Shown in pieces: positions 28,883 to 45,920 of a DNA stretch of 64,000 nt. Source of the stretch: Oscillospiraceae bacterium. GTDB taxonomy: Bacteria > Bacillota > Clostridia > Oscillospirales > Oscillospiraceae. Numbering within the stretch: position 1 is the stretch's first letter; the number at the start of each line of letters is the position of its first letter. The stretch lies in NCBI GenBank assembly GCA_902778285.1, contig CACYXC010000026.1, forward strand, positions 1 to 64,000. The letters are read 5' to 3'. The position numbers were made by a program, and so were the translations under genes. Below the pieces are notes generated by a model. That model did not search any database and was not told the DNA's origin. It worked only from the letters and a program-made list of their open reading frames with translations.

Positions 28883-29075
28883 AAGGATGTGCCATACGGC
28901 ACATCCTTCAGACTGTAGACAAACCCATGCTGCCGAAGTTTGACACGCATGGGGAGAGCGCGAGAGGGGATTGGTTATTCCCTCTCGCGATTGATATACT
29001 CAGTTCTCATTTTTGATTTTCAAGCTGTCGACACTTTGTCGACAGCTTGAAGGATGTGCCATACGGCACATCCTT
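28883..29075. repeat. MITE-like element between duplicated hairpins, locus 1
   Basis: A 26-bp palindromic hairpin (stem GGATGTGCC/GGCACATCC) occurs identically at 28883-28908 and 29050-29075. Between the copies lies a 141-bp element (28909-29049) that begins CAGACTGTAGACAAACC and ends with the palindrome CAAGCTGTCGACA...TGTCGACAGCTTG, so the two ends form imperfect terminal inverted repeats. Only the second hairpin is followed by a T run. Internal hairpin 28959-28989. The element is in the opposite orientation to loci 2 and 3. Confidence 0.8.
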
Positions 29076-29144
29076 TTTTCCGCGGAATTTGTCATCGCCT
29101 TTCGGCGAATCGATCGTCTTCATAGGCACAGGGCGGAAAAGACG

Positions 29145-29315
29145 TCATTCCTTTTCCGCAGCCTGTTCATTTTCCTTTTCAGCATAGATCTGAGCGACCT
29201 CTTCTTTGAGAGGCTGGGCCATTTTACGTCTGTTCAGCCAGGGGATAAAGAGCTTCCCGAGAACAAGAGCAATGACGAATGCCAGCAAAAAAGCTATGAT
29301 GATTCTGATCTCCAT
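29145..29315 (-). CDS. Small membrane protein resembling the MraY N-terminus
   Basis: A 56-residue open frame with a good ribosome binding site (GGGAG six bases before the ATG). Residues 1-37, with FLLAFVIALVLGKLFIPWL then NRRKMAQPLKEE, resemble the first helix and cytoplasmic edge of phospho-N-acetylmuramoyl-pentapeptide transferase; the rest (AQIYAEKENEQAAEKE) is a charged tail. It lacks all catalytic parts. It may be a remnant of a mraY copy or a free small protein. It overlaps nothing and is followed by the MITE locus. Confidence 0.5.
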   Translation of the reverse strand: MEIRIIIAFLLAFVIALVLGKLFIPWLNRRKMAQPLKEEVAQIYAEKENEQAAEKE

Positions 29316-29438
29316 ATGATACTCCCATAAGCATCGAGCGCCGGCCGGGGGCGGACCCTGCCGGAACAGCAGCTTGTCTGTCTGTTTGATGCGGACGCGG
29401 CAGGGCGCCGCCTCTCCTCAAAACTCAAAACTCACGAC

Positions 29439-30590
29439 TCAAAACTCTTTCTCCAGCTCCAGCAGCGTCTGGGTGAAGCCGTAGCGCTCGGCGAGCGCGC
29501 GGGCCTGCTCCCGTCCGGCCGTACCGCATCTGCCCGTGCGCCGGGCGCGGATCATCAGGTTTTTCGGCGTGCTGTCAAAATCCGTGAATTCGATCATGTC
29601 CACCGCGTAGCCCCGATCCTCCAGCACCAGCGCGCGGATGGAGTCGGTCAGCAGGGCGGCCATGCGCTCCTGAATGATGCCGTGGCGGAGAAAGATATCC
29701 AGCTCGCCGCCCCAGCGGATGCTGCCGTTGATTTCGTGCTGGCAGCAGGGGACGGAGAAGATGTGCTGCGCCCCCTTCGCGATGGCGTAGTGCAGGGCGT
29801 AGTCGGTGGCGGTGTCGCAGGCGTGGAGCGTGACGACCATGTCCACCTTCTCATCATACAGCACGTCCTTCGACACGTCCGCGTGCACGAAGCGCAGGCC
29901 CGCATAGCCGTACTTCCCGGCGATGGCATTGCAGCGCTCGACCACGTCCGCCTTCAGGTCGTAGCCGATGATCTTCACGTCCATGCCGCGCCTGACGGAA
30001 AAGTAGTAGTAGAGGATAAAGGTCAGATAGCTCTTGCCGCAGCCAAAGTCGAGGATCGTGATCTGCTTCTGCTCGCTGCCCGTGAAGGCCTGGTCGATGA
30101 GCTCCACAAAGCGGTTGATCTGCCGGTACTTGTCGTAGCGGGCCTTGACGATGCGGAAGTCCTGCGTGAACACGCCCAGATCCACCAGCGCCGGGATCGC
30201 CTCGCCCTCGCGCAGGAGATACTGCTTTTCCCGGTCGTGGCCCTGCGCGGCCGCCGGCCGCGGCACCGCCGCGCCGCCGCTTTTCTTATAGAGGCCGTTC
30301 TGCCGCAGACTGTACTGGGCGGAGGCCTCCTCCGTCACGATCAGGGCCTGCCGGTAGCGCCCGTCCAGCTCGTCGGCCGCCATACGCAGCAGCGCCTCGC
30401 CTTCCAGATTCTGATGGAAGACCTGCGCGCCGCGCTGCCGCTCCAGCTGGAAGATGCGCGTCCCCCTGTGAAGCAGCGGACGGACGGAGATCTTTGCATC
30501 GGCACTTTGGTCCAGCGGCTGGCTGAACACCGCGCGCGAGAGCGTATCCAGCGCGGCGGAGAGTTCGGTTGTGAGATTCTTTTCTTTCAT
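29439..30590 (-). CDS. SAM-dependent methyltransferase
   Basis: A 383-residue enzyme with a central Rossmann-type methyltransferase domain: motif I ILDFGCGKSYLTFILYYY (as ILDFGCGKSYL, near residue 178) and, later, TLHACDTATDYAL and FSVPCCQHEIN, a set typical of the Methyltransf_32 group that may modify RNA. The N-terminal 130 residues are a separate region. It overlaps the rsmI stop by four bases and is therefore in one operon with it, which supports a role in RNA modification. The exact target is unknown. Confidence 0.75.
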   Translation of the reverse strand: MKEKNLTTELSAALDTLSRAVFSQPLDQSADAKISVRPLLHRGTRIFQLERQRGAQVFHQNLEGEALLRMAADELDGRYRQALIVTEEASAQYSLRQNGLYKKSGGAAVPRPAAAQGHDREKQYLLREGEAIPALVDLGVFTQDFRIVKARYDKYRQINRFVELIDQAFTGSEQKQITILDFGCGKSYLTFILYYYFSVRRGMDVKIIGYDLKADVVERCNAIAGKYGYAGLRFVHADVSKDVLYDEKVDMVVTLHACDTATDYALHYAIAKGAQHIFSVPCCQHEINGSIRWGGELDIFLRHGIIQERMAALLTDSIRALVLEDRGYAVDMIEFTDFDSTPKNLMIRARRTGRCGTAGREQARALAERYGFTQTLLELEKEF

Positions 30591-31462
30591 TCGAACATCT
30601 TTTTCAGTCTCAGGGCCGCGGCCTTGAGCTCGTTTTTGCTGTAGGAATTGTTCTCGTCGGCCAGGACCGCCGCGACGGCCTCTTTGGCGCTGAGATCCCC
30701 GGCCACCATGGCGTCCACCAGCATGGCCTCGGGAGAGACCGTGTGCTCCACCTTGTTGAACACATACTCCGGCGCGACCTCCAGCACCACGGCGTATTCG
30801 CCCTTGTCGTAGTTCCCCTTGGCCAGCAGCTGCTCCTTCACTTCCGCGGGCGTGCCGCGAAAGCTCATCTCGTGCAGCTTCGTCATGTCGTTGCAGAGGC
30901 AGAGCCGCAGGTCGGCGGCGCTTTCGATGAAAAAGTCCACCAGGGACATGATGCGCAGGGGGGACTCGTAGAAGGCGAAGGTGCGCGTGTCGCCCCGGCG
31001 CATCCGCTCCAGCAGCTTGCGGCGATCTGCGTTTTCACGCGGGAAGAAGCCGAAGAAGGTGAAGGAGCTCAGATCGAAGCCCGAGATCGCCAGCGCGTTC
31101 ACCGCGGCGCAGCAGCCCGGTATGCCGACCACGCGGATGCCCTCTTCGACCGCGGCCTTGATGAGCTCGTTGCCGGGGTCGGAGATGCAGGGGGTGCCGG
31201 CGTCGGTGATGACGGCGACGTTTTTGCCCGCCTTCATCTCCTGGATGAAGTATTTGGCCTTGCCGTATTCGTTGAACTTGTGGTTGGAGACCAGCTTGTT
31301 TTTGATGCCGAGCTTGTTTAAGAGCACCATGGAGCGGCGCGTGTCCTCCGCGGCGATGATGTCCGCGTCCGTGAGGATCTGTGTCCCGCGGGGCGACATG
31401 TCCCGCGAGTTGCCGATGGGCGTCGCGACGATGTACAGGGTCCCGGCCGTGATCTCTTCCAT
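30587..31462 (-). CDS. rsmI: 16S rRNA (cytidine-2'-O)-methyltransferase RsmI
   Basis: A 291-residue enzyme that methylates the ribose of C1402 in 16S rRNA. It starts GTLYIVATPIGNSRDMSPRG, has the EDTRRS and GTPCISDPG motifs near residues 38 and 90, and PGCCAAVNAL near 115, all hallmarks of RsmI within the tetrapyrrole-methylase fold. Length is normal. It is the first gene of a two-gene operon with the downstream methyltransferase. A GGAAGAGATC-type start context is present. Confidence 0.95.
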   Translation of the reverse strand: MEEITAGTLYIVATPIGNSRDMSPRGTQILTDADIIAAEDTRRSMVLLNKLGIKNKLVSNHKFNEYGKAKYFIQEMKAGKNVAVITDAGTPCISDPGNELIKAAVEEGIRVVGIPGCCAAVNALAISGFDLSSFTFFGFFPRENADRRKLLERMRRGDTRTFAFYESPLRIMSLVDFFIESAADLRLCLCNDMTKLHEMSFRGTPAEVKEQLLAKGNYDKGEYAVVLEVAPEYVFNKVEHTVSPEAMLVDAMVAGDLSAKEAVAAVLADENNSYSKNELKAAALRLKKMFE

Positions 31463-31540
31463 AAGAAGCCTCCGTGTTTTTTCAGAATCATCAGTCTAAA
31501 ATAACAGTATAACGTATCGGATACGCTTTGACAACAAAAA

Positions 31541-31564
31541 CCGGAGAGAGCTCTCCGGCTTTTC
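31541..31564. terminator. Hairpin between rsmI and csoR
   Basis: CCGGAGAG-AG-CTCTCCGG (31541-31558) followed by CTTTTCG on the plus strand and a T run on the minus strand. It probably insulates the csoR promoter. Confidence 0.5.
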
Positions 31565-31638
31565 GATTTCGTGCGGCGAAGTCCGTGCAGCTGCGGATGA
31601 ACGGTCCATACAGAGGGAAATCTTCTTTGCGGAGGGAC

Positions 31639-31667
31639 TTGACATATACCCCGTGGGGGTATATTAT
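31639..31667 (+). promoter_or_regulatory. Promoter of csoR-copA
   Basis: TTGACA at 31639 and TATTAT at 31662 with a 17-base spacer that is almost entirely the CsoR operator. Confidence 0.9.
31644..31664 (+). promoter_or_regulatory. CsoR operator
   Basis: Palindrome ATATACCCC-GTG-GGGGTATAT between the -35 and -10 boxes, matching the CsoR box. Cu(I) binding by CsoR would relieve repression. Confidence 0.88.
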
Positions 31668-31690
31668 CCTGACAGAAGGAGGCGAGAGCG

Positions 31691-32017
31691 ATGGAGAAAA
31701 CATGCTGCTGTCCGCCGACGGAGGAGGGAAACGGCCTCCATAAAACGAAGGAGCGCTCCCCGGAGGAGTACAGGGCCCTGTGCAACCGGCTCAGCCGGAT
31801 CGAGGGGCAGATCCGCGGCCTGCGCGGTATGCTGGACCGGGGCGCGTACTGCCCGGATATCCTGGCCCAGGCGGCGGCCGCGAACGCGGCGCTCAACGCC
31901 TTCAGCCGGGAGCTGCTCAGCCGGCATATCCGCTCCTGCGTGGTCGATGACGTGCGCGCCGGCAACGACGAGGTCATCGACGAGCTGCTGGGGACTCTGC
32001 AGAAGCTGATGCGATAG
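31691..32017 (+). CDS. csoR: Copper-sensing repressor CsoR
   Basis: A 108-residue all-helical repressor of the DUF156 family. The Cu(I) ligands are in place: Cys54, His79 and Cys83 (YCPDIL and RHIRSC), with the same spacing as in known CsoR. An extra CCC near the N-terminus is unusual. It represses its own promoter through the operator at 31644. copA follows after 335 bases filled with repeats, so the two are probably cotranscribed. GGAGGCGAGAGCG precedes the ATG. Confidence 0.93.
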   Translation: MEKTCCCPPTEEGNGLHKTKERSPEEYRALCNRLSRIEGQIRGLRGMLDRGAYCPDILAQAAAANAALNAFSRELLSRHIRSCVVDDVRAGNDEVIDELLGTLQKLMR

Positions 32018-32352
32018 GGGCAGGAGTAAGACTTACGCCCCTCATCCGCCCCAGTGTGCCCACTGGGGCACCTTCCCCCAAAGGGGGAAGGCTATAAGGA
32101 AACCTCATCCGGTGCTTCGCGCCACCTTCCCGCGTCCGAACAAGGCCGCGAGGTCTGACAGCGGCACGAAAATGCCGCTGCCATGACCGCCGACCTTGTT
32201 CCTCCTAACCCAAATCAAAGCATGCGCTTTGATTTGGAGAGGAAAAGGGAGGGAGCGGATATGTAGCTTTCATGGCTCTTAAGCAAACCATGGAAGCGGA
32301 ATAGAGCGAGCTTCCTTTGACGAGTGGAAGGCTGTAAGGAAGAAGGATTGGA
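32018..32352. repeat. Repeat-filled gap between csoR and copA
   Basis: No gene. From 32037 to about 32100 it is a REP-like repeat (CCCCTCATCC... then CCTTCCCCC-AAA-GGGGGAAGG and CTATAAGGA), partly repeated at 32101-32130. A GGTC/GACC-containing segment follows. From 32213 to 32335 it is a second repeat family (contains ATCAAAGCATGCGCTTTGAT and GGAAGC), whose inverted relative lies at 59903-60014. The end of this repeat, AAGGCTGTAAGGAAGAAGG, provides the ribosome binding site of copA. Confidence 0.7.
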
Positions 32353-34875
32353 ATGGAACAATACAACGTCACGGGCATGAGCTGCGCGGCCTGCTCGGCC
32401 CGGGTAGAAAAGGCCGTCGGCGCGGTGCCGGGGGTCACGGCCTGCTCGGTGAGTCTGCTCACAAACTCCATGGGCGTCGAGGGCACGGCCGATCCGCAGA
32501 GCATCATCGCCGCGGTGGAGGCCGCCGGCTACGGCGCGAGCCGGGAGGGCGCGGAGAAGACCGCCGCGCCCGCTGAGGATGAACTGGCAGACCGTGAGAC
32601 GCCCGCGCTGCTGCGCCGCCTCGCGGCGTCCGTCGGCTTCCTGCTGGTGCTGATGTACTTCTCCATGGGGCACACGATGTGGGGCTGGCCCCTGCCGAAG
32701 TTTTTTGACGACAACCATGTGGCCATGGGCATAGCCCAGCTGCTGCTGGCAGGGATCGTCATGGTCATCAACCAGAAGTTTTTTGTTAACGGCTTCAGGG
32801 GCCTGCTCCACGGCGGCCCGAATATGGACACGCTGGTGGCGATGGGCTCCGCCGCGTCCTTTGTCTACAGCACCTACGCCCTCTTCGCCATGACCCGCGC
32901 CCAGATCACGGGCGGCAGCGAGGCCGCCATGCCCTGGATGCATGAGTTCTATTTTGAGTCCGCGGCGATGATCCTGGCCCTCATCACCGTGGGCAAGACG
33001 CTCGAAGCCCGCTCCAAGGGCAAAACCACCGACGCGCTCAAGAGCCTCATGAAGATCGCGCCGAAGACAGCGACGCTGGTGATCAACGGACAGGAAAAGA
33101 CCGTGCCGATCGAGCAGGTCAAACGGGGCGACGTCTTTGCGGTGCGTCCGGGGGAGAGCATCCCCGTGGACGGCGTGGTGCTCGAGGGCGGCAGCGCCGT
33201 GGACGAGTCCGCCCTGACCGGCGAGAGCATCCCCGTGGACAAGGCAGCGGGCGACCGCGTCTCCGCCGCCACTATCAACCGCGAGGGCTATCTCCGCTGC
33301 GAGGCGACCCGCGTAGGCGAGGACACCACCCTCAGCCAGATCATCCGCATGGTCTCCGACGCCGCGGCCACCAAGGCCCCCATCGCCAAGATCGCCGATA
33401 AGGTCTCCGGCGTGTTCGTGCCGGCGGTCATGTCCATCGCGCTGGTGACGACTCTCGTCTGGCTGCTGCTGGGGCGGGAAATCGGCTTCGCGCTGGCCCG
33501 CGGCATCTCCGTGCTGGTGATCAGCTGCCCCTGCGCGCTCGGCCTCGCCACGCCCGTGGCGATCATGGTCGGCAGCGGCGTCGGCGCAAAGCAGGGCGTG
33601 CTGTTCAAGACCGCCGCCGCGCTGGAGGAGACCGGCAGGGTGGATATCGTCGCCCTCGACAAGACCGGCACCGTCACCGCAGGGGAGCCGAAGCTCACCG
33701 ATCTGCTGCCCGCGGAGGGCGTGAGCGAGGCGGAGCTGCTGCGGCTCGCGGCTTCTCTGGAGAGCCGGAGCGAGCATCCCCTGGCCCGCGCCGTCCTGCA
33801 GGGTGCGCGGGAGCGGGCGATCGAAACGCAGTCGGTGGAGGACTTTCACGCCCTGCCCGGCAACGGCCTGCGCGCGGTTTTGGACGGTGAGGCGCTGCTC
33901 GGCGGCAGCCGGGCCTATATGGCAAAGCAGCTCGTCCTGCCCGCGGCGGCCGTGAAACAGGCCGAGGCGCTCGCGGCAGAGGGGAAGACCCCGCTGTTCT
34001 TCGCGCTCGGCGGCCGCTTCCTCGGCATCCTCGCCGTGGCGGACGTCATCAAGCCCGACAGCGCGCAGGCGGTCCAGGAATTGAAGAATTTGGGCATTAA
34101 GGTTGTTATGTTAACCGGCGACAATGCCCGCACCGCCGCGGCCATCGGCCGTCAGGCGGGCGTGGATCAAGTGATCGCGGGCGTGCTGCCCGACGGGAAG
34201 GAAAGCGTGATCCGGCGGCTGCAGGAGTTCGGCAGAGTCGCCATGGTGGGCGACGGCATCAACGACGCGCCGGCGCTTACCCGCGCGGACATGGGTATCG
34301 CCATCGGCGCGGGCGCGGACGTCGCGATCGACGCGGCGGACGTGGTGCTGATGCACTCGCGGCTCTCCGACGTGCCCGCGGCCATCCGCCTGAGCCGCGC
34401 GACGCTGCGCAACATCCACGAGAACCTGTTCTGGGCCTTTTTCTACAACGCCATCTGCATCCCCGTGGCGGCGGGCTGCTTTGTGCGCGCTGGACTCACG
34501 CTCAGCCCGATGCTCGGCGCGGCGGCCATGAGCCTGTCGAGCTTCTGCGTGGTGTCGAACGCTCTGCGGCTGAATCTGTTCCGCATGCATGACGCGAGCC
34601 ATGACAAGCCCCGGAAGGGGAGCCTGAACGAGATGGAACTTGAAATTGACAATACAAAGGAGGAAACGAAAATGACGAGAACCCTGAAGATCGAGGGCAT
34701 GATGTGCCCGCACTGTGAGGCCCGCGTGAAGAGGGCTCTGGAGGCGCTCGACGGCGTGGACGAGGCCGTGGTCAGCCATGTCAGCGGCACCGCCGTCGTC
34801 ACCGGCGACGCGGACTTCGAGACCATGAAGGCCGCCGTCGAAGCCCAGGACTACAAGGTGCTGGGCGTCGAGTGA
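32353..34875 (+). CDS. copA: Copper-exporting P1B-type ATPase with C-terminal CopZ-like domain
   Basis: An 840-residue Cu(I) exporter. N-terminal metal-binding domain GMSCAAC (Cys11, Cys14); membrane helices; actuator TGES near residue 289; CPC metal site in [11 protein letters not shown] near 391; phosphorylation site DKTGT near 436; SEHPLARA near 473; GDGINDAP near 633; two last helices to about 750. Then, unusually, a second heavy-metal domain [11 protein letters not shown] (about 782) forms the C-terminus. The linker holds a strong internal ribosome binding site and Met774, so free CopZ may also be made. Regulated by CsoR. Confidence 0.95.
34672..34875 (+). CDS. copZ: Nested CopZ-like copper chaperone (internal start in copA)
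   Basis: Starting at an in-frame ATG within copA (codon 774), preceded eight bases upstream by AAAGGAGG, this would give a 67-residue protein [15 protein letters not shown]..., a complete heavy-metal-associated domain with the CPHC copper site. Its size and sequence match CopZ chaperones, which normally are separate genes after copA. Here no stop codon separates the two. Both a fusion and a free chaperone are possible. Confidence 0.6.
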
Positions 34876-34877
34876 CA

Positions 34878-35156
34878 GTGAAAAACGGGATGCGAAAGCA
34901 TCCCGTTTTTCTCAGACTGTCAAGAAAACCGTCGCGAAAGCATCGGAAATCAGAACAGCGGGGGAGCTCGAGGGGGCAAGGCCCGCCTCGAGTACAATCA
35001 GACGCCGTCCGAAAAAGGCTGAAATTCAGACTTTTTCGGGTTATCGCATTTTGGCAGATGCCAAAATGCGCGGCGGCAGAAGCGCAGTCAAAAAAGTCTG
35101 CAGGGACTTTTTTGACAAGCTGTGAAAAACGGGATGCGAAAGCATCCCGTTTTTCT
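34878..35156. repeat. MITE-like element between duplicated hairpins, locus 4
   Basis: A 35-bp segment containing the terminator hairpin AAACGGGATGC-GAAA-GCATCCCGTTT is repeated at 34878-34912 and 35122-35156. Between them lies an element of about 210 bp with imperfect terminal inverted repeats (left CAGACTGTCAAGAAAA; right end, read inward, CAGCTTGTCAAAAAAG). Internal inverted repeats include CATTTTGGCA/TGCCAAAATG near 35047-35070. The first hairpin is the copA terminator. Confidence 0.75.
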
Positions 35157-35162
35157 TTCTCT

Positions 35163-35189
35163 GTAGGGGTCGGCGCCCTCGACGACCCG
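35163..35189. repeat. GTAGGGG-type short repeat
   Basis: GTAGGGGTCGG...CGACGACCCG, a short hairpin repeat; relatives lie at 39775, 50904 and inside the polyferredoxin gene near 59467. Confidence 0.5.
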
Positions 35190-35206
35190 TCTGTTTTCTG
35201 AAGTCT

Positions 35207-35683
35207 CTATAAACGAAGGATTTCCTTCCCGTCCAGCACGGCCTCGACCAACCGGTCGCCGACATAGCGGAGCTTGAGCGAGAAAAACGGCGCGTCCTCC
35301 TCCAGCAGGCGGAGGAAGATCTTATCGCCCTCCCAGATGGGCTTTTCCAGCAGCTCACGCTTTCCGATCCACTCCAACTGCCCCTCGTCGCAGTCCGTGC
35401 GGACTTCGCCCTCGAAATCGTCCGAGGTAAAGAGGTGCATGTACTCGGTGCCCCACTCGTCGGAGACGAAGGTCACGATGCCGCGAAACTGCCAGCTTCG
35501 GAGGCTCAGCCCCGTCTCCTCCCGCACCTCGCGCAGCAGGCAGTCCTCCGGGCTCTCGCCCTCCTGGAACTTTCCGCCGATGCCGACCCATTTGTCTTTG
35601 TTCTCGTCCACGTTTTTTTTGACGCGGTGCATCATCAGGTATTTTCCGCCGCGCTCGATGTGGCACAGCGTGGTATTGCGCAT
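35207..35683 (-). CDS. NUDIX hydrolase (8-oxo-dGTP diphosphatase-like)
   Basis: A 158-residue NUDIX enzyme. The box G-x5-E-x7-REVREETG is complete (GGKFQEGESPEDCLLREVREETGL, residues about 36-59, seen as GKFQEGESPEDCLL then REVREETGL). It resembles MutT-type enzymes that remove oxidised nucleotides, but the substrate is not certain. The ATG at 35683 with GGGAGG upstream is preferred over a GTG nine bases earlier that overlaps the ribosome binding site. Single gene. Confidence 0.85.
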   Translation of the reverse strand: MRNTTLCHIERGGKYLMMHRVKKNVDENKDKWVGIGGKFQEGESPEDCLLREVREETGLSLRSWQFRGIVTFVSDEWGTEYMHLFTSDDFEGEVRTDCDEGQLEWIGKRELLEKPIWEGDKIFLRLLEEDAPFFSLKLRYVGDRLVEAVLDGKEILRL

Positions 35684-35796
35684 GGCGATCACCTCCCGGC
35701 CATCTTATCATAAAAAAAGAAAAATGAACAGGGTGGATTGTCTTGCGTGAAAAAGGGTGGTATACTGAGAGCAATTTCCGACGAGGAGAACAAGAT

Positions 35797-36759
35797 ATGA
35801 AACGCTTGATCGCCCTGCTTTTGATGACCGCCCTGCTGCTGGCGCTGCCCGTCGTGGCCGCCGCGGAGGACGGCGGACAGTCCGAAGCCTTCACCGTGGA
35901 CACCAAGATCCATGACGTGATCGATGACCCCGCCTTCAGCGGCTTCGGGCGGCTGCTGTTCCCCACGGTCTTTGATATCCCGGCGCGTCTGCCGATCAAG
36001 GAGCTGTACTACCTGCTGCCCGCCTACCATACCATCAACCCGGAGAACGCGGCCGAGGTGCTCAACTACCTGAAGGATCAGGCCGAGGCCGGCAATCAGG
36101 TCTTCTACGACATCTACACCGCCGAGGAAAAGGCGGCTGACCCCGCCAAGGCGGACACGGGCCTGTTCTTCTTCCGCGGCGATCCCGGCGGCAAGTTTGC
36201 GGTGCTGTCCTCGGGCATGGCCTTCCGCTATGTCGGCGCCATCCATGACAGCTTCCCCCAGGCGCTGGAGCTTTCCAAGCGCGGCTACAACGCCTTCGCG
36301 CTGATCTTCCGCCCCGGCAAGATCACCGGCACGGAGGATCTTGCCCGCGCGGTCGACTTCATCTTCGCCCACGCCGACGAGCTGGGCGTGGACACGACGG
36401 ACTACTCCATCTGGGGCGGCTCCAGCGGCGCGCACTTTGCGGTCTGGTACACGGAGAACGGCGCCCAGGCCTTCGGCGGGCAGGACCACGGGAGACCCGC
36501 CATCATCGTGACGCAGTACACCGCCTCCTATGAGCTCAGCGGCAACGACGTGCCCACCTACGCAAACCTCGGCGACCGGGACCTCTACTGCCAGGCCAAC
36601 GAGAAGGACCGCATCGCCAAGCTCCAGGCCATGGGCATCGACGCGCAGCTCGACCTCTTCGAGGGCTGCTGGCACGGCTTCGGACTGGGCATCGGCACCG
36701 CGGCCGAGGGCTGGATCGACAACGCGGTGGCCTTCTGGCAGCGGCACATGACGGCCTGA
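35797..36759 (+). CDS. Secreted alpha/beta hydrolase
   Basis: A 320-residue protein with a signal peptide (LIALLLMTALLLALPVVAAAE, cleavage near residue 24; given here as LLLMTALLLALPVVAAA) and an alpha/beta-hydrolase domain. The nucleophile elbow GGSSGAH lies near residues 207-213 and a likely catalytic His in CWHGFGLG near 294. The pattern resembles BD-FAE/esterase-lipase family enzymes acting outside the cell. ACGAGGAGAA precedes the ATG. The next gene follows after 28 bases and may be cotranscribed. Confidence 0.8.
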   Translation: MKRLIALLLMTALLLALPVVAAAEDGGQSEAFTVDTKIHDVIDDPAFSGFGRLLFPTVFDIPARLPIKELYYLLPAYHTINPENAAEVLNYLKDQAEAGNQVFYDIYTAEEKAADPAKADTGLFFFRGDPGGKFAVLSSGMAFRYVGAIHDSFPQALELSKRGYNAFALIFRPGKITGTEDLARAVDFIFAHADELGVDTTDYSIWGGSSGAHFAVWYTENGAQAFGGQDHGRPAIIVTQYTASYELSGNDVPTYANLGDRDLYCQANEKDRIAKLQAMGIDAQLDLFEGCWHGFGLGIGTAAEGWIDNAVAFWQRHMTA

Positions 36760-36787
36760 GGACGGAAAAACGACGGAGGAAGCAGAT

Positions 36788-37183
36788 ATGAGATTCCTGG
36801 ACGACGAGTGGTATAAGATCCATCTCGAGAAGATCGCGCAGACCTTTACGGAGCCGGGCAGGCTGAACACCTCGCTGGTCGAGGTGTACCGGAACGTCTG
36901 GGGCGAGCCGGGCAGGGTCAGATGGATCAAATACGTCGTGGAAAACACGATGGTCAAGGAGATCACCCGCGGCGAGAGCGAGGACACGGTACCCGACGCG
37001 GCCTTCCGCTGCTTCGGCGAGTATAAAAGCTACGTCGCGGTCTGCCAGCGGAGGCTCGACCCCAAGATGGGCATCCTCGGCGGCGTGTTCAAGCTCGAGG
37101 GCGGCGTCATGGCCGCCATGCCGATGCTCCCGGTCTATGACAAACTGACCGCCTGCAAGCGCGTGGACGGAATGGAATTCTGA
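36788..37183 (+). CDS. SCP2-like small protein
   Basis: A 131-residue soluble protein. The C-terminal half (YKSYVAVCQRRLDPKMGILGG followed by VFKLEGGVMAAM) has the pattern of SCP2 sterol-carrier domains, which bind hydrophobic ligands. Confidence is limited. GACGGAGGAAGCAG precedes the ATG. It lies directly before the MITE locus 2, whose first hairpin is probably its terminator. Confidence 0.5.
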   Translation: MRFLDDEWYKIHLEKIAQTFTEPGRLNTSLVEVYRNVWGEPGRVRWIKYVVENTMVKEITRGESEDTVPDAAFRCFGEYKSYVAVCQRRLDPKMGILGGVFKLEGGVMAAMPMLPVYDKLTACKRVDGMEF

Positions 37184-37199
37184 GCTCAGAACATAACGA

Positions 37200-37430: not shown

Positions 37431-37444
37431 AAGGAGACTGCGTC

Positions 37445-38925: not shown

Positions 38926-39019
38926 GGAAAAACGCATAAGAGAATCCTGGCGGCGCGTATAAAGTTTTCCATCTCCGTAAATAATAGGCTCGTAATCCTT
39001 TTTTACGGAGGTCAAACAC

Positions 39020-39754
39020 ATGAACAGCAGAAGCTCCGGCGGAAGGCTGGAGGCATTTTTCACGGGGAAGGGCTTCTACATAGTCCTGTTCCTCTGCGCG
39101 GCGATCATCGGCGGTTCTGCCTGGATGATGGCGGCGGGCGAGCGGACTATGAAGGAAGACATCGCCGGCATGAACCGGCAGAGCATGGAGAACTACCGGG
39201 TGGAGACCGTGATCCTTCCTCCTGAGCAGGAGGAGATCCAGCCCGCCATGGCGCCGGAAACGAAGGTCATGCGCCCGGAGGACGAGGGCGTCGCCCCCGC
39301 GCAGAGCAGTGAGGCATGGAGCGGAGAGCCCGCGGCGGAGGCGGGGCCGGACTACGTCTGGCCTGTCAGCGGGCAGGTCGAGCGCCGGCATGACAGAAAC
39401 GTCCTGACCTACGACGCGACGATGCGCGACTGGCGCACGCACGAGGGCATCGACATCCTGGCGCCTCTGGGCGAGCCGGTCTGCGCCGCCCACGCCGGCA
39501 GCGTGGAGAGCATCGTGCAGGACGATCTCTACGGCACAGTGCTCACCGTCTCCCACGGCGACGGGACGCGCACGGTCTACGCCAATCTCGCCGAGCAGCC
39601 CGCGGTCAGCGTGGGCGACCGCGTGGAGGCCGGCGACGTGATCGGCACGGTCGGGGACACGGCCCTCGGCGAGATCGGCCAGGGCAGCCATCTGCACTTT
39701 GCCGTCACGGTGGACGGCGCGGGCGTGGACCCGCTGGCATATCTCCCGGGCTGA
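39020..39754 (+). CDS. M23 peptidase, SpoIIQ-like
   Basis: A 244-residue membrane-anchored protein with one helix (about residues 17-38) and an M23 domain at about 115-240. Metal ligands are present: HEGIDI near residue 141 and HLHF near 224, so it could be an active endopeptidase. The small size, single helix and spacer match Clostridial SpoIIQ, which acts at the forespore membrane, but the call is not certain. TACGGAGGTC precedes the ATG. A terminator follows. Confidence 0.7.
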   Translation: MNSRSSGGRLEAFFTGKGFYIVLFLCAAIIGGSAWMMAAGERTMKEDIAGMNRQSMENYRVETVILPPEQEEIQPAMAPETKVMRPEDEGVAPAQSSEAWSGEPAAEAGPDYVWPVSGQVERRHDRNVLTYDATMRDWRTHEGIDILAPLGEPVCAAHAGSVESIVQDDLYGTVLTVSHGDGTRTVYANLAEQPAVSVGDRVEAGDVIGTVGDTALGEIGQGSHLHFAVTVDGAGVDPLAYLPG

Positions 39755-39774
39755 GACAGCAGGGAATCAACACC

Positions 39775-39799
39775 GTAGGGGCGGCTATCAGCCGCCCGC
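39775..39799. repeat. GTAGGGG-type short repeat
   Basis: GTAGGGGCGGC-TATCA-GCCGCCCGC, a short hairpin repeat; compare 35163, 50904 and 59467. Confidence 0.6.
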
Positions 39800-39802
39800 A
39801 AA

Positions 39803-39838
39803 AAACCGGGCCTGCGGCATTTGCCGCAGGCCCGGTTT
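39803..39838. terminator. Bidirectional terminator
   Basis: A 17-bp stem (39803-39819 with 39822-39838), ending in TTT on each strand, placed between the M23 gene and the convergent dehydratase operon. Confidence 0.8.
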
Positions 39839-39850
39839 GCTTGAAAAGGA

Positions 39851-40021
39851 TCAAATGTACTGATTGTGCTCCTGATGGTCGTACCATTTCTCCAGCAGGG
39901 GGGCCAGCATGGCGGTGGCCTTCATGTCCAGATTGAACATATAGATCGTGAAGGTGACCACGAAAAAGCAGACCGCGGCCAGCAGCAGGTACAGGGGCAG
40001 TTTCAAAAGCTTTTTGAACAT
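39851..40021 (-). CDS. Small membrane protein of the dehydratase operon
   Basis: A 56-residue open frame with one helix (LPLYLLLAAVCFFVVTFTIYM, here LYLLLAAVCFFVVTFTIY, residues about 10-28) and a charged C-terminus. It starts 21 bases after the last dehydratase gene with GAAGGAG upstream (13-base spacing). No family is recognised. It is probably cotranscribed with the dehydratase genes. Confidence 0.55.
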   Translation of the reverse strand: MFKKLLKLPLYLLLAAVCFFVVTFTIYMFNLDMKATAMLAPLLEKWYDHQEHNQYI

Positions 40022-40042
40022 ATGCTTCCGGCGTCTCCTTCC

Positions 40043-41641
40043 TTAGTAGGCTTCGTTGTCGGGGATGATCTCGAGGGAGGGATCCAGCGGCTCCTCGCGC
40101 ATGACGGTGCGCATGTAGTTGTTCACCTGGTCGCGGATCGCCTGGCGGGTGAAGACGCGCGGATCGCACAGGTCGTGGGAGACCCACATGATGTGGATGC
40201 CGCGCTCGCGCGCCTGCTCCTCGAACATGCCGTGCATGCCGGTCAGCGCCTTGCAGCTCATGTGCTCCCACATCATGACCATGTCGGCGTTCATCTTCTC
40301 GCACAGCTCCCACAGCTCGTCGAGCAGCACCTTGTAGCCGCCGTGGGTGTGGTTGCGCATGATCATCTCCATGTTCAGCATCGCCATGTCGCGGTAGGCC
40401 TGCTCGCGGTTTTCGGGCGTGTCCTCCTCGGCGATCATCTCGGTGTTGATGATGGAGAGCATGTCGGCCAGCGGCATGACGCCCCAGCACTGCACCAGCC
40501 AGTAGAGCATGTCGATCGTATACTGCGGCTGCACGCCCCAGACGATGGCGCGGTGGCGGTACTCTTTGGCGTACATGCGCTTGGCGCGGTAGCCCTGCTC
40601 GGCCAGCGCCAGCAGCTTGTGGTCGATGGGCACAAAGTTGGGATCGCGGCCGGAGTTGCCCATGTAGTTGGTGTCGTTATAGAGGCTGAAGGCCGCGCCG
40701 AAGAACTGCGGATACGGGGTGGAGTTGATCTCGAGCTGGGCGATGCGGCAGCGGGTCGCGTCGTTGACGCGCTTGGCGGCGGCAAAGTACACGTCCCAGT
40801 CCCATTTCCCGCCGGTGTGCTCCTCGACGAAGGCGATGGCCTTCTTGATCTCGGTCGCGGCATAGTCCATGACGTCCGGCTCCTTGTGGCGCAGCGGGGT
40901 GGCCAGCTGGAAGGTCGGGATGCCGTACTGGCGCTCGAGACGCTTGGCGATGATGCCGTTGCCCATCAGAGAGCCGTCGCAGGTGGTGTTGTTCTGCACC
41001 GCGCACTTGCCGAGCACGCAGAAGTCGTCCTCGATGGAGATGCCAGCCTCGGCCTCGGGCATGGGGCAAACGTCGCCGGGGATGCCGTACTGCTGGGCGA
41101 CGTCGAGATAGTGCATGACGTTGAACTGGTGGAAGATGTTCGAGGCGAACATCGTGGGCACCTCGCGCAGGATCGTGTGGATCTTCTCCTTGTCGAAGCC
41201 CATCATGAAGGTGACCATGGAGTTCTCGTCGGTGATGACGCAGTGGTCGGAATAGTAGACGTCGTTGCCGACGCGGCGGTCGCCGCGGAAGCAGTTGGCG
41301 ATGGCCTGCGTCACGTCGGCGATGACGAAGTTGAAGGAGGTGTGGGCGATGCGCAGCGCCTCGTCGCGCAGGCCGACGGTGAACTTGTCCATGCCGTGCG
41401 GCACGAAGAGATAGCTCATCATCCAGCGGTAGCGGAAGAAGCCCTTGATGTTGCGCGGCACGACGATGAAGCGGGCCAGCACGGAGATCAGGTAGAGCCA
41501 GCGGGTGTAATCGTAGAGGGTGTCCTTCAGACCGCGCCACTCGCGGCGGGCGCGGACCTTCAGCTTCTCGTCGTAGATCTTTCCGGGCGACTGCTCGCCG
41601 GCGCGCCTGACGGGATTGATGACTTTCTCAACCGTTTTCAT
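40043..41641 (-). CDS. 2-hydroxyacyl-CoA dehydratase subunit
   Basis: A 532-residue protein of the 2-hydroxyacyl-CoA dehydratase D-component family, enzymes that remove water from 2-hydroxyacyl-CoA with a [4Fe-4S] cluster by a radical mechanism in amino-acid fermentation. Family features are the C-terminal MWEHMSCKALTG and WVSHDLCDPR regions with conserved cysteines. It is longer than usual (about 380-480). AGGAGAGCAGGC precedes the ATG, which overlaps the partner's stop by four bases. The ATP-dependent activator is not in this window. Confidence 0.82.
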   Translation of the reverse strand: MKTVEKVINPVRRAGEQSPGKIYDEKLKVRARREWRGLKDTLYDYTRWLYLISVLARFIVVPRNIKGFFRYRWMMSYLFVPHGMDKFTVGLRDEALRIAHTSFNFVIADVTQAIANCFRGDRRVGNDVYYSDHCVITDENSMVTFMMGFDKEKIHTILREVPTMFASNIFHQFNVMHYLDVAQQYGIPGDVCPMPEAEAGISIEDDFCVLGKCAVQNNTTCDGSLMGNGIIAKRLERQYGIPTFQLATPLRHKEPDVMDYAATEIKKAIAFVEEHTGGKWDWDVYFAAAKRVNDATRCRIAQLEINSTPYPQFFGAAFSLYNDTNYMGNSGRDPNFVPIDHKLLALAEQGYRAKRMYAKEYRHRAIVWGVQPQYTIDMLYWLVQCWGVMPLADMLSIINTEMIAEEDTPENREQAYRDMAMLNMEMIMRNHTHGGYKVLLDELWELCEKMNADMVMMWEHMSCKALTGMHGMFEEQARERGIHIMWVSHDLCDPRVFTRQAIRDQVNNYMRTVMREEPLDPSLEIIPDNEAY

Positions 41642-42837
41642 GCCTGCTCTCCTTTCTGGATCTTCTTGATCTCGATGCTCTCCACGAAGGCCTGCACGCG
41701 GGTGCGCATCTGGCCGGAGGAGGAGGCGATGTTGTAGGGCCGGTCGACCGACAGCACGGGATAGCCGAAGTCCACATTCAGCATTGAGGAGCCCAGGGTC
41801 CTCTCGTAGGCCCAGGGGTCGCAGAACTTGACCTGCTGGTAGATGATGCCGTCGGCGCCGTACTCGCGGGCGAGATCGGCCACGTACTGCTTGCGGCCGT
41901 AGACCTTGTCCATGCTCATCATGCGCGGGCACTGGCAGCTCTGGATGTAGTGGCGGCAGACCTGCCTGAGCGCGTCCTCGTCGTCGTTGAGGACGATCTC
42001 GTTGCGGCCGGGGAAGGAGCCGAAGCAGAAGCGGTCACAGCAGACCAGAGCGCCCTGCTCCTCGATGAGCTTGATCATGCCGGAGTCGTCCATCTCGGAG
42101 CCGACCACCAGAAGCCTTGCGCGCCAGGGCTTGTCGTCCGGCTCGCGATTCTGCAGCTCCTCGAGCGTCTCTTCCAGCTTGTCGAGGATGAGATACTTGG
42201 GGCAGACATAGGTGGCCAGGCACAGCACATGGAACTCATAGCCGGTGATGCGGGGCCTGTCGCCCTTGCGGAATTCGCCGATCGCGCGGATCAGGCGGCA
42301 GATTTTGTTGTGCCGCTCCACGGACTCGCGGATGGAGGCGTCGGAGATGTCCACGCCGTATTTCTCGTGCAGGGGCTTGAGCACGTGGTTCGTGCACTGC
42401 AGTACGGCGAGGTCCACGTCGCTGTCGGTGTTCTTGAAGGCGATCTCCATGTATTCATGGAAGAAGTTGGGGTTACCCTGGCCCATGGTGTGCAGCAGCT
42501 CCATGTTTTCGACGCAGCGGTTCATCATCGTGCAGCCGTCGGGCGTGATGACGCAGTCGGCGAAGTTGAAGCCGCCCTCGATGGCGCGCTCCAGCAGGGC
42601 GCGGCTCGGCTCGCACAGCAGGTTCGTCATGTAATAGGTCGCGATGTCCATGGAGCCGGTGTGCGGCGCGAAGAGACGGATCGAGCAGCAGTCGCCGAGG
42701 TTGAGCAGGGGTTCGGGGACGTTTTCGCAGGTGTAGGCGACGCAGAGTTTGCCATCGCTCTTGGCCTGAGCGATAAGCGCGTTGTTGGCCTCCTGCAGGA
42801 GGTTTTCAAAGTAAATCAGATGCTCCAGGTCTCTCAT
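41638..42837 (-). CDS. 2-hydroxyacyl-CoA dehydratase subunit
   Basis: A 399-residue partner subunit. Motifs include VAYTCENVPEPLL with the early cysteine near 48, LGDCCSIRLFAPHTGSMD, and the C-terminal QVKFCDPWAYER with cluster-ligand cysteine, all characteristic of the dehydratase family (HgdB/FldC group). The start at 42837 has AGAGGGA upstream; an earlier in-frame ATG has no ribosome binding site. First gene of a three-gene operon. The substrate (glutamate, phenylalanine, lactate or other pathways) cannot be fixed. Confidence 0.85.
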   Translation of the reverse strand: MRDLEHLIYFENLLQEANNALIAQAKSDGKLCVAYTCENVPEPLLNLGDCCSIRLFAPHTGSMDIATYYMTNLLCEPSRALLERAIEGGFNFADCVITPDGCTMMNRCVENMELLHTMGQGNPNFFHEYMEIAFKNTDSDVDLAVLQCTNHVLKPLHEKYGVDISDASIRESVERHNKICRLIRAIGEFRKGDRPRITGYEFHVLCLATYVCPKYLILDKLEETLEELQNREPDDKPWRARLLVVGSEMDDSGMIKLIEEQGALVCCDRFCFGSFPGRNEIVLNDDEDALRQVCRHYIQSCQCPRMMSMDKVYGRKQYVADLAREYGADGIIYQQVKFCDPWAYERTLGSSMLNVDFGYPVLSVDRPYNIASSSGQMRTRVQAFVESIEIKKIQKGEQA

Positions 42838-42872
42838 TTGATCCCTCTTTCCAAAATAAAGTGCCTGCGAAC

Positions 42873-42901
42873 AGTTTATCAATACCCCGGGGCAAAATCA
42901 A
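42873..42901 (-). promoter_or_regulatory. Promoter of the dehydratase operon
   Basis: Minus strand: TTGATT (42901-42896), 17-base spacer, TAAACT (42878-42873), 35 bases before the start codon. Confidence 0.6.
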
Positions 42902-42972
42902 GTTTGGGGGGCTTAGCAGGCTTAAATTTATCCGTTTCGTCAAAAAATCTGAAGATTCTTTATGCAAAGCGA

Positions 42973-43021
42973 CAGGAGCGGTGTTTAGACATTTCCAGAC
43001 GAAATGTCCGCACCGCTCCTG
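42973..43021 (-). terminator. Hairpin after the EEP-family gene
   Basis: An 11-bp stem (42973-42983 with 43011-43021) containing an inner GACATTTC/GAAATGTC stem. It can end the EEP-family transcript on the minus strand. Confidence 0.5.
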
Positions 43022-43040
43022 CGTGGGCTGTTATTGATGA

Positions 43041-44096
43041 TTATTTGAGCGTGACGCGCAGGTTCACCGGGTTGTGGTCGGAATCGGCAAAGCCCAGATC
43101 CAGCGTCATGACGCGCTCCATCTTCACATTGGGGGAGACGAGGAAGCCGTCGATCACGTAGTACTGGGTGTGCGCCACGTCCAGGGGCTCGTAGGGCTGG
43201 TTGAGCAGGCGGCAGCTCGGCACCTCCAGATCGTAGAAGAAGGAAAAGCCCTGCGGCAGAGCGTCGTTCTCCAGCACGCCCGGCGCCCAGTAATCGGGAT
43301 TGATCATCGGATACTCCGCCATCACCTCGGGGAAGGTCTGGTTGAAGTCGCCGCCGGCGATGACGTAGTTGCCCTTGGCATATTCCTCCTGAACAAGGTC
43401 CGCGAGCTGCTTTGTCTGGGCGATCTTGCCCTCGCCGTCGTCATAGGCCTCGAGGTGCAGGTTCACCAGCACCAGCTCTTTGCCGCTCTCCCCGACGGGC
43501 AGGCGGCTGACCAGCAGGCAGCGCTTGAGATTGGCCGTGCGCAGCGGCCAGGAGAAGGGGCAGGGGAGGGCCACGCGCTCAGCCGAGTCGATCCGGTATT
43601 CGGAGCTCGTCATCAGACCGCTGTACACCCTGCCCATGGGCGGCCAGGGGATGGGCACGAAGGGGCAGGAATAGTTGTAGGCAAAGACGGACTGGCCGAT
43701 GGAAAGCGGCACGCTCTCGTCGATGCGATAGGTGCGTTTGGAATCGGTGTCCACCTCCTGGAGGAGGACCATGTCGTAGTCGCCGATGGTGATCTGCGCC
43801 GCAATGTCGGCCAGATAGTGCCGCACCGTCTCCTCGTCGGCGCTGACGCCCTCGCCGCCGTCCATAAAGAAGTCGGACGCTGCGCCGAGACCGGCGTAGC
43901 CGATGTTCCAGCTCAGGATGCTCAGGGACTGCCCCTCGGTCAGCGCGGGGAGGGGCTGCTCCGGCATGTCGAAGAAGGAGAGCGCCTCGACCGCCTCCGG
44001 CCGGTACTCCGTCACGGTCAGAAAACCGAGCAGGCCGCCCGCCGCGAGGACGATCACCAGCACAAGGATCAGCAGGGCTTTGAGCAGTTTTTTCAT
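43041..44096 (-). CDS. Membrane-anchored endonuclease/exonuclease/phosphatase-family protein
   Basis: A 351-residue protein with an N-terminal helix (ALLILVLVIVLAAGGLLGFL, residues about 7-26) and an EEP-fold domain: SILSWNIGYAG near 58, LLQEVDTDSK near 111, GGDFN near 252 and SDHNP near 340. All four catalytic regions are present, so it is probably an active extracellular phosphodiesterase or phosphatase; the substrate (nucleic acid, sphingolipid or inositol-type) is unknown. AGGAGGTGTCCC precedes the ATG. It appears monocistronic. Confidence 0.85.
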   Translation of the reverse strand: MKKLLKALLILVLVIVLAAGGLLGFLTVTEYRPEAVEALSFFDMPEQPLPALTEGQSLSILSWNIGYAGLGAASDFFMDGGEGVSADEETVRHYLADIAAQITIGDYDMVLLQEVDTDSKRTYRIDESVPLSIGQSVFAYNYSCPFVPIPWPPMGRVYSGLMTSSEYRIDSAERVALPCPFSWPLRTANLKRCLLVSRLPVGESGKELVLVNLHLEAYDDGEGKIAQTKQLADLVQEEYAKGNYVIAGGDFNQTFPEVMAEYPMINPDYWAPGVLENDALPQGFSFFYDLEVPSCRLLNQPYEPLDVAHTQYYVIDGFLVSPNVKMERVMTLDLGFADSDHNPVNLRVTLK

Positions 44097-44180
44097 GGGA
44101 CACCTCCTGTGTCAGTTGAATACCATGATTGTACCATGTTTCCATAAATCCATCAAGAAATATTCGTCAAACTTGCCGGA

Positions 44181-44209
44181 TTGTAAGATGGAGGAAAAGC
44201 GGTTATAAT
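44181..44209 (+). promoter_or_regulatory. Promoter of glyA
   Basis: TTGTAA at 44181 and TATAAT at 44204, 17-base spacer, 60 bases before the ATG. Confidence 0.75.
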
Positions 44210-44268
44210 GTTGTCGGTTTTTGGAAAACGCGCAGAGAACACAACATCTTGTTACGGAGGGCTTACGC

Positions 44269-45510
44269 ATGAGCTATGAACATGTCAGACGGCAGGACCC
44301 GGAAGTATACGAATCCATGATGCGTGAGCTGCAGCGGCAGCGGGACCATCTGGAGCTGATCGCCTCGGAGAACTTTGTGAGCGAGGCCGTCATGCAGGCC
44401 ATGGGCAGCCATCTGACCAACAAATACGCCGAGGGCTATCCCGGCGCCCGCTACTATGGCGGCTGCCAGTTCGTGGACGAGGTGGAGACCCTGGCGATCG
44501 AGCGCGCCAAGAAGCTCTTCGGCGCCGAGCACGCAAACGTGCAGCCTCACTCCGGCTCTCAGGCCAACGTGGCCGTGTATCTCGCTCTGCTCCGGCCGGG
44601 CGATACCATCCTGGGCATGGATCTGAACCACGGCGGCCACCTGACCCACGGCGCTAAGGCCTCCATCTCCGGCAAGTACTTCAACGCGCAGTTTTACGGC
44701 GTGGACCCGCAGACCGAGACCATCAACTACGAAAGCGTGATGCGGCGGGCGGAAGAGGTAAAGCCGAAGATCATCATCGCCGGCGCGAGCGCCTACCCCC
44801 GCTTCATCGATTATCAGAAGATGCGCGAGATCGCCGACGCCGTCGGCGCGTACCTGATGGTGGACATGGCCCATGTGGCGGGCCTCGTCGCCGCGGGCGT
44901 GCATCCGAACCCGGTACCCTTCGCCCATGTGGTGACCACCACCACCCACAAGACCCTGCGCGGTCCCCGCGGCGCGCTGATCCTCTGCACGGACGAGCTG
45001 AAGAAAAAGATCGACTCCGCCGTCTTCCCCGGCAGCCAGGGCGGCCCGCTGATGCACATCATCGCGGCCAAGGCCGTCTGTTTCGGCGAGGCGCTGCAGC
45101 CCGAATTCCGGGAGTACCAGAGCCAGGTGGTCAAAAACGCCGCCGCCCTGGCCGACTCTCTGCGGCAAAACGGCGTGCGCCTGGTCTCCGGCGGCACCGA
45201 CAACCACATGATGCTGGCCGACGTGATGAGCAGGGGCAAGACCGGAGCCGAGGTGCAGGAGCTGCTGGACGCGGCCAACATCACCGCCAACAAGAACACC
45301 ATCCCCTTCGACACCCAGTCCGTCAAGCTGACCTCCGGCATGCGCTTCGGAAGCCCCGCCGTCACCACCCGCGGACTGAAGGAGGAGGAGATGCGTCAGG
45401 TCGGCGGCTTCATCGCCCGCCTGATCGAGGAGGGCGAGAGCGCCGTGCCCGAGGTGAAGGAGCAGGTCATCGAGATGACCCGCCGCTTCCCGCTCTATCC
45501 CGAGATGTAA
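44269..45510 (+). CDS. glyA: Serine hydroxymethyltransferase
   Basis: A 413-residue PLP enzyme converting serine and tetrahydrofolate to glycine and methylene-THF. Family motifs: [12 protein letters not shown] near residue 31, [16 protein letters not shown] near 50, and the PLP-lysine motif [15 protein letters not shown] near 222. Length is normal. The ATG at 44269 follows ACGGAGGG; upstream in-frame codons have no ribosome binding site. Monocistronic; its terminator hairpin is the one duplicated around the MITE array that follows. Confidence 0.97.
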
Positions 45511-45519
45511 ATACCGTAT

Positions 45520-45920
45520 CTGGTCCGGGCGGCTTTGCCGCCCGGAATCTCAAGCTGTTGACAAAGTGTCGACAGCTTGAGCGGCAAAAATGGGAACTTC
45601 CGAAAAAGTACCCGCTTTTGCACAGATTGTACCGCGAAAGGGGATTACCGTCCCCTCTCGCGCTCCCCCCATGCGAGTCCGACTTGTTCTGTACGGGTTT
45701 TTCTACAGTCTGTGATTCCGGGCGGCATTGCCGCCCGGAATCTCAAGCTGTCGACAAAGTGTCGACAGCTTGAAAGGCAAAAACAGAAACATTCGAAAAT
45801 GTTCCTGTTTTTGCTGACATTGAAATGCGAGAGGGAATACTCTCCCCATGCGAGTCCGACTTGTTCTGTATGGGTTTGTCTACAGTCAGTGATTCCGGGC
45901 GGCATTGCCGCCCGGAATCT
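45520..45920. repeat. Tandem MITE-like elements between three hairpin copies, locus 3
   Basis: A hairpin with stem TTCCGGGCGGC/GCCGCCCGGAA occurs at 45520-45550 (variant), 45713-45743 and 45890-45920 (identical 31 bp). Element A (45551-45712, 162 bp) and element B (45744-45889, 146 bp) fill the gaps. Both begin CAAGCTGT(C/T)GACAAAG and end TCTACAGTC(T/A)G; each has an internal AAAAA...TTTTT hairpin and a CATGGGGAG-type module. The first hairpin is the glyA terminator. Confidence 0.85.

Follow-up and report, generated by a model that had tools for sequence, protein, structure and literature searches.

The 64,000-nucleotide stretch analyzed here, referred to as the window, comprises positions 1 to 64,000 of contig CACYXC010000026.1 from an Oscillospiraceae bacterium (GCA_902778285.1). 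Four places in this stretch carry short elements enclosed by direct repeats of a hairpin. We propose that these elements are very probably miniature inverted-repeat transposable elements (MITEs) of the IS1182 family, that they are moved by the DDE transposase of one clade, and that the dyad or hairpin serving as target is duplicated whole upon insertion. A first-pass annotation, made from the letters alone, had described the elements and their hairpin repeats. All four places look as it reported, and their exact coordinates could be fixed as follows.

28883-28908, no strand: locus 1 target duplication copy 1, terminator hairpin AAGGATGTGCCATACGGCACATCCTT, 3' of the MacB-like gene, equal to 29050-29075
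28909-29049, minus strand: family-1 MITE, 141 bp, ends CAGACTGTAGACAAA / CAAGCTGTCGACAAA
29050-29075, no strand: locus 1 target duplication copy 2, perfect 26-bp match to copy 1
34879-34912, no strand: locus 4 target duplication copy 1, hairpin 3' of the copA-like gene, perfect 34-bp direct repeat
34913-35122, plus strand: family-2 MITE, 210 bp, ends CAGACTGTCAAGAAA / CAGCTTGTCAAAAAA
35123-35156, no strand: locus 4 target duplication copy 2, perfect 34-bp direct repeat
37200-37229, no strand: locus 2 target duplication copy 1, AAATGTCCTCCCCAAAAAGGGAGGACATTT, perfect 30-bp repeat
37230-37347, plus strand: family-1 MITE, 118 bp, family-1 ends
37348-37377, no strand: locus 2 target duplication copy 2, perfect 30-bp repeat
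45520-45550, no strand: glyA terminator hairpin copy 1, 31 bp, diverged, several bases unlike copies 2 and 3
45551-45712, plus strand: family-1 MITE, 162 bp, first of a tandem pair
45713-45743, no strand: glyA terminator hairpin copy 2, 31 bp, identical to copy 3
45744-45889, plus strand: family-1 MITE, 146 bp, second of the tandem pair
45890-45920, no strand: glyA terminator hairpin copy 3, 31 bp, identical to copy 2

Family 1 is represented in the window by four elements at three places, with a 29-bp palindrome as left end (CAAGCTGTCGACAAAGTGTCGACAGCTTG) and TTTGTCTACAGTCTG as right end. Allowing up to three mismatches, the left end finds nine matches in the window (0.48 expected) and the right end ten (0.83 expected), numbers that none of 100 shuffles reaches for either end. 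The reversed orientation at locus 1 was seen correctly on the first pass, as was the tandem arrangement behind glyA with its three hairpin copies, although the first of these has diverged from the other two. In contrast, the element at 34878-35156 is not another instance of the same MITE: its ends are related to those of family 1 yet distinct, and we assign it to a second MITE family. Pfam supports the proposed identities of three upstream genes (MacB-like, copA-like P-type ATPase and glyA, encoding serine hydroxymethyltransferase), but the open reading frame upstream of locus 2 that had been called SCP2-like gave no Pfam match at 1e-5. No Rfam family reached its gathering threshold across 28500-46200. 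A Penicillinase_R (BlaI-type) repressor gene at 37378-37816 adjoins the locus-2 element, and TACAAATGTA-like palindromes were spotted by eye upstream of this gene.

Hairpin repeats around MITE copies in this and other genomes

The genome that contains the window is a 2.43-Mb draft in 76 contigs with an estimated completeness of 89%. A search of this genome for the 29-bp left palindrome with up to three mismatches returned 96 forward and 98 reverse matches, each copy tending to match on both strands, and none with the reversed control sequence. At least 100 places were listed (78 with no, 11 with one and 11 with two mismatches). Four of the two-mismatch places (on contigs C30, C37 twice, and C43; labels in C, G and L are our handles for contigs, genomes and loci) fall outside the final set of 97 copies, which consists of 96 listed places and one additional copy found in a retrieved stretch. 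Seventeen of the 97 could not be judged because no right end was readable or the border of the stretch was reached. With the element ends fixed and a score of at least 12 required, direct repeats flank 73 of the 80 evaluable copies, and 48 of these repeats are exact. The repeats measure 20-44 bp (median 29) and all 73 differ from each other in sequence. The 73 elements between them are short (107-279 bp), multicopy sequences that contain no transposase gene.

In 62 of the 73 cases the center of the repeat is also the center of a dyad. The mean symmetric pairing is 0.783, compared to 0.279 after base shuffling (200 shuffles, maximum 0.321), and pairing is about 0.8-0.9 within the repeat but 0.66, 0.53 and 0.37 at the positions just beyond it. 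With 73 distinct and mostly dyadic repeats in a single genome, the core claim of the first-pass annotation is supported: the hairpin is not part of the element but is duplicated as the target of insertion.

Copies in other genomes present a similar picture. Direct repeats flank 44 of 60 judged copies, and 38 of these 44 are dyad-centered. The matches listed contain at least 106 such copies, 46 of which lacked a readable right end or reached the border of the stretch; the count of 106 includes L115 on both strands and a probable contig-end duplicate (L220/L250), and since these extras are among the unjudged 46 they do not affect the ratio of 44 to 60. The named records among the matches listed are metagenome-assembled genomes of Oscillospiraceae, Ruminococcaceae or Clostridia(les), and where the titles give a source, it is a ruminant; the host of the window's elements is probably an uncultured member of the Oscillospiraceae from the rumen.

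The orientation of the element relative to the T run is weakly skewed in the window's genome (30 versus 24, with 19 ties) and stands at 28 versus 13, with three ties, in other genomes. Divergence specific to the loops of the hairpin copies was considered and discarded, since 45 differences in 1920 stem bases and six in 281 loop bases show no enrichment in the window's genome. The flanking hairpins of L046 and L109 have common stems and unlike loops. The left palindrome itself shows changes on both arms that preserve pairing, such as CAAGATG..CATCTTG and CACGCTG..CAGCGTG (window instance 37230-37258). The 97 copies of the window's genome contain six double-arm and 12 single-arm changes of this sort, with about 0.1 double changes expected by our estimate from a change rate of roughly 1% per arm position; in other genomes four double changes (two kinds, two copies each) occur next to 14 single ones. 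This points either to a role for the folded end or to repair in which one arm serves as template for the other.

The sites behind glyA and copA were also inspected in relatives, reading up to four hairpins per site over 330 bases. The element 3' of glyA is absent in 16 of 17 relatives, and none of these 16 contains a duplicated hairpin, although 11 have a hairpin within 60 bases (L308, where one weak match resembling an end lies ahead of the stop, was classed as empty). In the remaining relative, G016, two copies of the resident glyA hairpin enclose a second-family element, an independent insertion into the terminator of the same gene. Likewise, all 14 relatives inspected lack the element 3' of copA and show no duplicated hairpin, with a hairpin within 90 bases in 13. 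Since terminator sequences differ across species, these sites are orthologous rather than exact empty sites. Orthologues of the SCP2-like site were too few for a comparison of this kind.

These comparisons bear on the idea that both hairpins existed beforehand as tandem or bidirectional terminators and that a site-preferring element inserted between them, so that nothing was duplicated. This scenario would account for the seven copies in the window's genome that lack a scoring repeat, and for seven of 22 related insertion sequences (ISs, described below) with unlike hairpins on their two sides. We consider it improbable nevertheless, because 48 of the 73 repeats are identical over their full length, because the element-free copA and glyA ends show no duplicated hairpin, and because tandem elements bring an added hairpin copy both in the window and at L117.

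IS1182-family transposases with related ends

The annotation had also suggested looking for a transposase with the same terminal repeats, and genes of this kind, belonging to the IS1182 family, were found in sister species. A DDE-domain search of 36 relatives uncovered a complete IS of 1577 bp in G016 (L136), flanked by perfect 32-bp copies of a hairpin. Its ends resemble those of the second MITE family, including an exact copy of CAGCTTGTCAAAAAA, and its open frame codes for an IS1182-family transposase (298.1 bits, E = 1.3e-88), the start of which lies in another frame. The 15-mer right end of family 1 (CAGACTGTAGACAAA) occurs unchanged, abutting a hairpin, at the near end of IS1182 genes in G074, G030, G018 and G097, and with one substitution in G112. 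On another contig of G018 the opposite end reads CAAATTGTCGACAAA, two differences away from the left end of the MITE. A complete transposase of 507 amino acids is encoded at L178 (G085), where the near end is one substitution from CAGACTGTAGACAAA. This protein matches the IS1182 model NF033551 with E = 3.8e-133 and 444.9 bits (cut-off 270), and contains the DDE transposase domains PF13751, PF05598 and PF01609. Hence, the window MITEs and IS1182-family ISs have terminal inverted repeats in common.

This association speaks against two other sources. An IS1630-like transposon of the IS30 family would produce a similar outcome, namely duplicated inverted repeats of variable length. Yet the IS30 transposase model (NF033563) finds no match in the window's genome (relatives were not searched for IS30), and in relatives it is IS1182 transposases that come with identical or related ends and with this kind of duplication, which makes an IS30 origin very improbable. 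Even less credible is copying by an HUH enzyme acting on single-stranded hairpins, in the manner of REP (repetitive extragenic palindrome)/RAYT or IS200/IS605 elements. Hairpins do occur both at the targets and at the element ends, the left end being a 29-bp palindrome with a five-base center. However, the gene found in association encodes a DDE transposase (HUH genes were not searched for), and the elements combine terminal inverted repeats with long target duplications. To our knowledge, HUH elements make no target duplication. The target duplication of ISCaa10 is listed as 0 (PMC3196728).

The second MITE family was traced in the window's genome by its end TTTTTTGACAAGCTG, which gave nine matches with at most one mismatch (reversed control: one). 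Scoring repeats were found for the window element, where the repeat is exact, and for L293, L294 and L296, with four or five mismatches. L289 has related hairpins on both sides, and for four of the nine, including L291, no partner end was found. At L291/L026 (G000:C17, around 40237-40428) a second-family end abuts the distal hairpin copy of a family-1 element, so that this terminator seems to have served both MITE families as a target.

Hairpin duplication extends beyond the genus. Nine plasmid loci were taken from 20 listed of 1772 records matching L178, with clinical Enterococcus, Listeria and two others left out. Perfect whole-hairpin copies flank six of these IS1182 loci, with lengths of 24 bp in Acetoanaerobium, 24 in Peribacillus (plasmid pB), 35 in Cytobacillus, 30 in Sutcliffiella, 20 in Lactococcus and 22 in Cetobacterium, counted as the exact repeat, in which a base or two may be identical by chance. 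Two other plasmid loci have unlike hairpins on their two sides (L330, L334), and L332 has a hairpin at just one recognized end. A sample taken across the phylum (46 of 299 genomes with hits, 30 loci read) contributed further cases.

A quick maximum-likelihood tree was calculated for 45 IS1182-type transposases of at least 430 amino acids; shorter proteins from loci with hairpin repeats (L185, L336, L352) or with a hairpin at one end (L332, L340) stayed outside. Labels were set by hand, and "none" denotes neither a palindromic repeat nor a clear CAG end with a hairpin. In one clade of 22 transposases (SH-aLRT 99), every IS has a hairpin on at least one of its ends. The hairpin is repeated in 12 of them (11 by script, L363 by eye), seven have two unlike hairpins, and in three a hairpin was seen on one side only. 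The clade spans several Bacillota groups and, judged by protein similarity outside the tree, the Fusobacteriota plasmid copy L336. Among the 23 transposases outside the clade, whose IS ends were mostly not located, a palindromic repeat was detected in L359 only. This locus, from a relative at the phylum level, encodes a protein with 22% identity to that of L178, and has CAG..GACAAA-like ends and flanking 31-bp hairpin copies. ISs of class "none" outside the clade could use hairpins in the manner of IS1272. Both the contrast between the clade and the rest and the position of its border are less sure than these counts imply, and long branches were flagged by the program that built the tree.

Exceptions and the choice of target

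Several observations weigh against the proposed origin of the window elements or limit its reach. Most directly, the annotation held that the duplication is always a complete hairpin and named elements lacking one as evidence to the contrary; such elements form a minority, with no scoring repeat at seven of 80 evaluable copies in the window's genome and at 16 of 60 in other genomes, and only four of the nine second-family matches gave one. L005 and L054 have unlike hairpins on their two sides. Some of the repeats that were counted are weak, such as that of L084 (33 bp, seven mismatches, at threshold). The inverted repeat often runs a few bases past the duplication, which means that cutting does not occur strictly at the hairpin foot. 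An A/T run (at least four A before, or four T after, within six bases) accompanies 48 of the 73 targets, and thus many but not all are likely to be intrinsic terminators.

On the side of the transposase, no IS1182 gene was found in the window's own 89%-complete draft genome, where a candidate at E = 0.0027 fell far below the cut-off and was rejected. The IS1182 genes with exact family-1 ends are truncated at contig borders or incomplete. Both ends of L178 are one substitution from the right end of the MITE, so that its far end is four substitutions from the left end, and its two sides carry unlike hairpins. Within the clade, seven of the 22 members have unlike hairpins, L330 among them, and one side of L188 is no better than background; the hairpins of L363 have a common stem but unlike middles, and the script did not call them a repeat. 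Near-identical ISs on plasmids pB and pA of Peribacillus sp. R9-11 (L329, L330) lie between identical hairpins in one case and unlike hairpins in the other. Finally, the clade contrast is lopsided because the ends outside the clade were mostly not located.

An IS present in several copies could have dropped out of the assembly, given the completeness of 89% and the position of several MITE copies at contig ends. Most genomes of the genus likewise gave no such gene: the protein piece from G018 was matched in 15 of 102. Unlike hairpins could arise by recombination between copies or by deletion after insertion; they also occur in complete plasmid records (L330, L334), and are therefore not solely assembly artifacts. 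Of the remaining copies without a scoring repeat, L009, L078 and L079 have side hairpins that are related but diverged, and L017 lacks one hairpin arm on one side. L034 is flanked by a 6-bp repeat (AGTTCT) centered in GGAAGTTCTTCC, in surroundings that look coding by eye, and L113, from another species, by a 7-bp repeat (ATACTAT) centered in TAATACTATTA. Both short repeats are centered on dyads, as read by eye, which suggests that dyad symmetry rather than termination is the cue.

The following mechanism explains these findings best. A DDE transposase from one clade of the IS1182 family, acting in trans, would bind the CAG.CTGT.GACAAA ends of the MITE and select a dyad-symmetric site, in most cases the hairpin of an intrinsic terminator. 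Each of the two element ends would then be joined to a different strand, close to the outer margins of the dyad, and gap filling would copy the hairpin onto both sides. Since the duplication corresponds to the hairpin across the observed range of lengths, the target's shape seems to determine how far apart the two strands are cut. With the terminator duplicated, the upstream gene would keep its terminator and insertion would be nearly harmless, so that around 100 copies could accumulate; this suggests how so many copies arise without gene breakage, as a terminator is left on both sides of each insertion.

The geometry would suit an extruded cruciform with strand transfer close to its 5' feet. 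Our tentative suggestion, which we regard as plausible rather than probable, is that transposases of this IS1182 clade attack the two 5' feet much like a junction cutter, which would yield a duplication equal to the hairpin at any length, and that the same fold-recognizing protein reads the left end of the MITE, which is self-complementary and whose arms change together. If true, a DDE transposase would read its target as DNA shape, tuned to terminators where the cost of insertion is least. A somewhat unlikely alternative dispenses with extrusion: two symmetric subunits would read the linear palindrome, and the stagger would be set where symmetry ends. The dyads at L034 and L113, which appear too small for stable extrusion, fit this alternative better; the range of 20-44 bp, in contrast, would be hard to reconcile with a rigid protein geometry and would come naturally if the foot of a hairpin were the landmark.

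Large serine recombinase genes beside the element at L092 and L100 were rejected as autonomous partners on the evidence of L117, where an insert with a matching border splits the internal hairpin of the MITE, while the two halves of the MITE and the repeat of the outer hairpin are still in place. The large serine recombinase elements at L092/L120 (G036:C26) and L100/L121 (G023:C21) lie within the internal hairpin of a family-1 MITE, and the insert of about 1.1 kb at L117/L122 (G026:C77), with a border matching those elements, occupies the same site. It is as if the family-1 MITE acted as an attachment site.

Relation to known systems

The duplication of a whole hairpin is less unusual than the annotation had supposed, since terminator hairpins are known targets of IS1272 and TnSha1, and IS1630 is flanked by duplicated inverted repeats. 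Hairpin or terminator targeting by IS1182 elements, inverted-repeat duplication by IS1630, and one IS1182-type MITE are already in print. IS1630 is reportedly the subject of a 1999 paper by Calcutt. According to the accessible part of a further source, 16-, 23-, 25- and 26-bp duplicated junctions flank four of the seven complete IS1630 copies in Mycoplasma fermentans (PMC3317919). As far as this account goes, IS1630 resembles the window MITEs in duplicating an inverted-repeat target of variable length, but differs in its IS30-type transposase and few copies, compared to the IS1182 family and mainly MITEs here. MITEPye1 of Paracoccus yeei was attributed to transposases of the IS1182 family on the basis of its terminal repeats and is present in one to three chromosomal copies (PMC11578231); it is therefore comparable as an IS1182-type MITE, but its copies are few, and the available excerpt of that report mentions no hairpin duplication. 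Some IS1182 members are said to target palindromic sequences (Siguier 2015, as cited in the accessible part of PMC4923244). Relative to what this citation conveys of the family, the present analysis adds measurements of the clade, the number of sites and the dyad-centered duplication of whole hairpins.

In the open-licence literature we found no report of whole-hairpin duplication by IS1182 elements or of its clade-wide extent, although ISfinder entries may already record long palindromic repeats. The scattered reports on IS1630 and IS1272 can now be joined into a candidate rule at the level of a clade, with more than 100 natural target sites. A small group of transposases is named for biochemistry, and the choice of structure over sequence by a DDE transposase becomes directly testable.

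IS1272 and TnSha1, IS1182-family elements of Staphylococcus, insert into inverted repeats with no primary sequence consensus, and five of seven TnSha1 sites are terminators by RNA-seq, as stated in the accessible parts of PMC4923244 and PMC5678879. The latter, in the part available, also presents, as a theoretical possibility, a scheme with a shape-set outcome in place of the stem-loop loss observed with IS1272. The window MITEs agree with these elements, so far as they are described there, in family and in their use of hairpin targets without consensus (73 distinct targets here, 62 of them dyad-centered). In contrast, IS1272 and TnSha1 are described in the same excerpts as deleting or replacing the stem-loop or part of it, with no duplication, whereas the stem-loop is duplicated at 73 of the 80 evaluable copies reported here.

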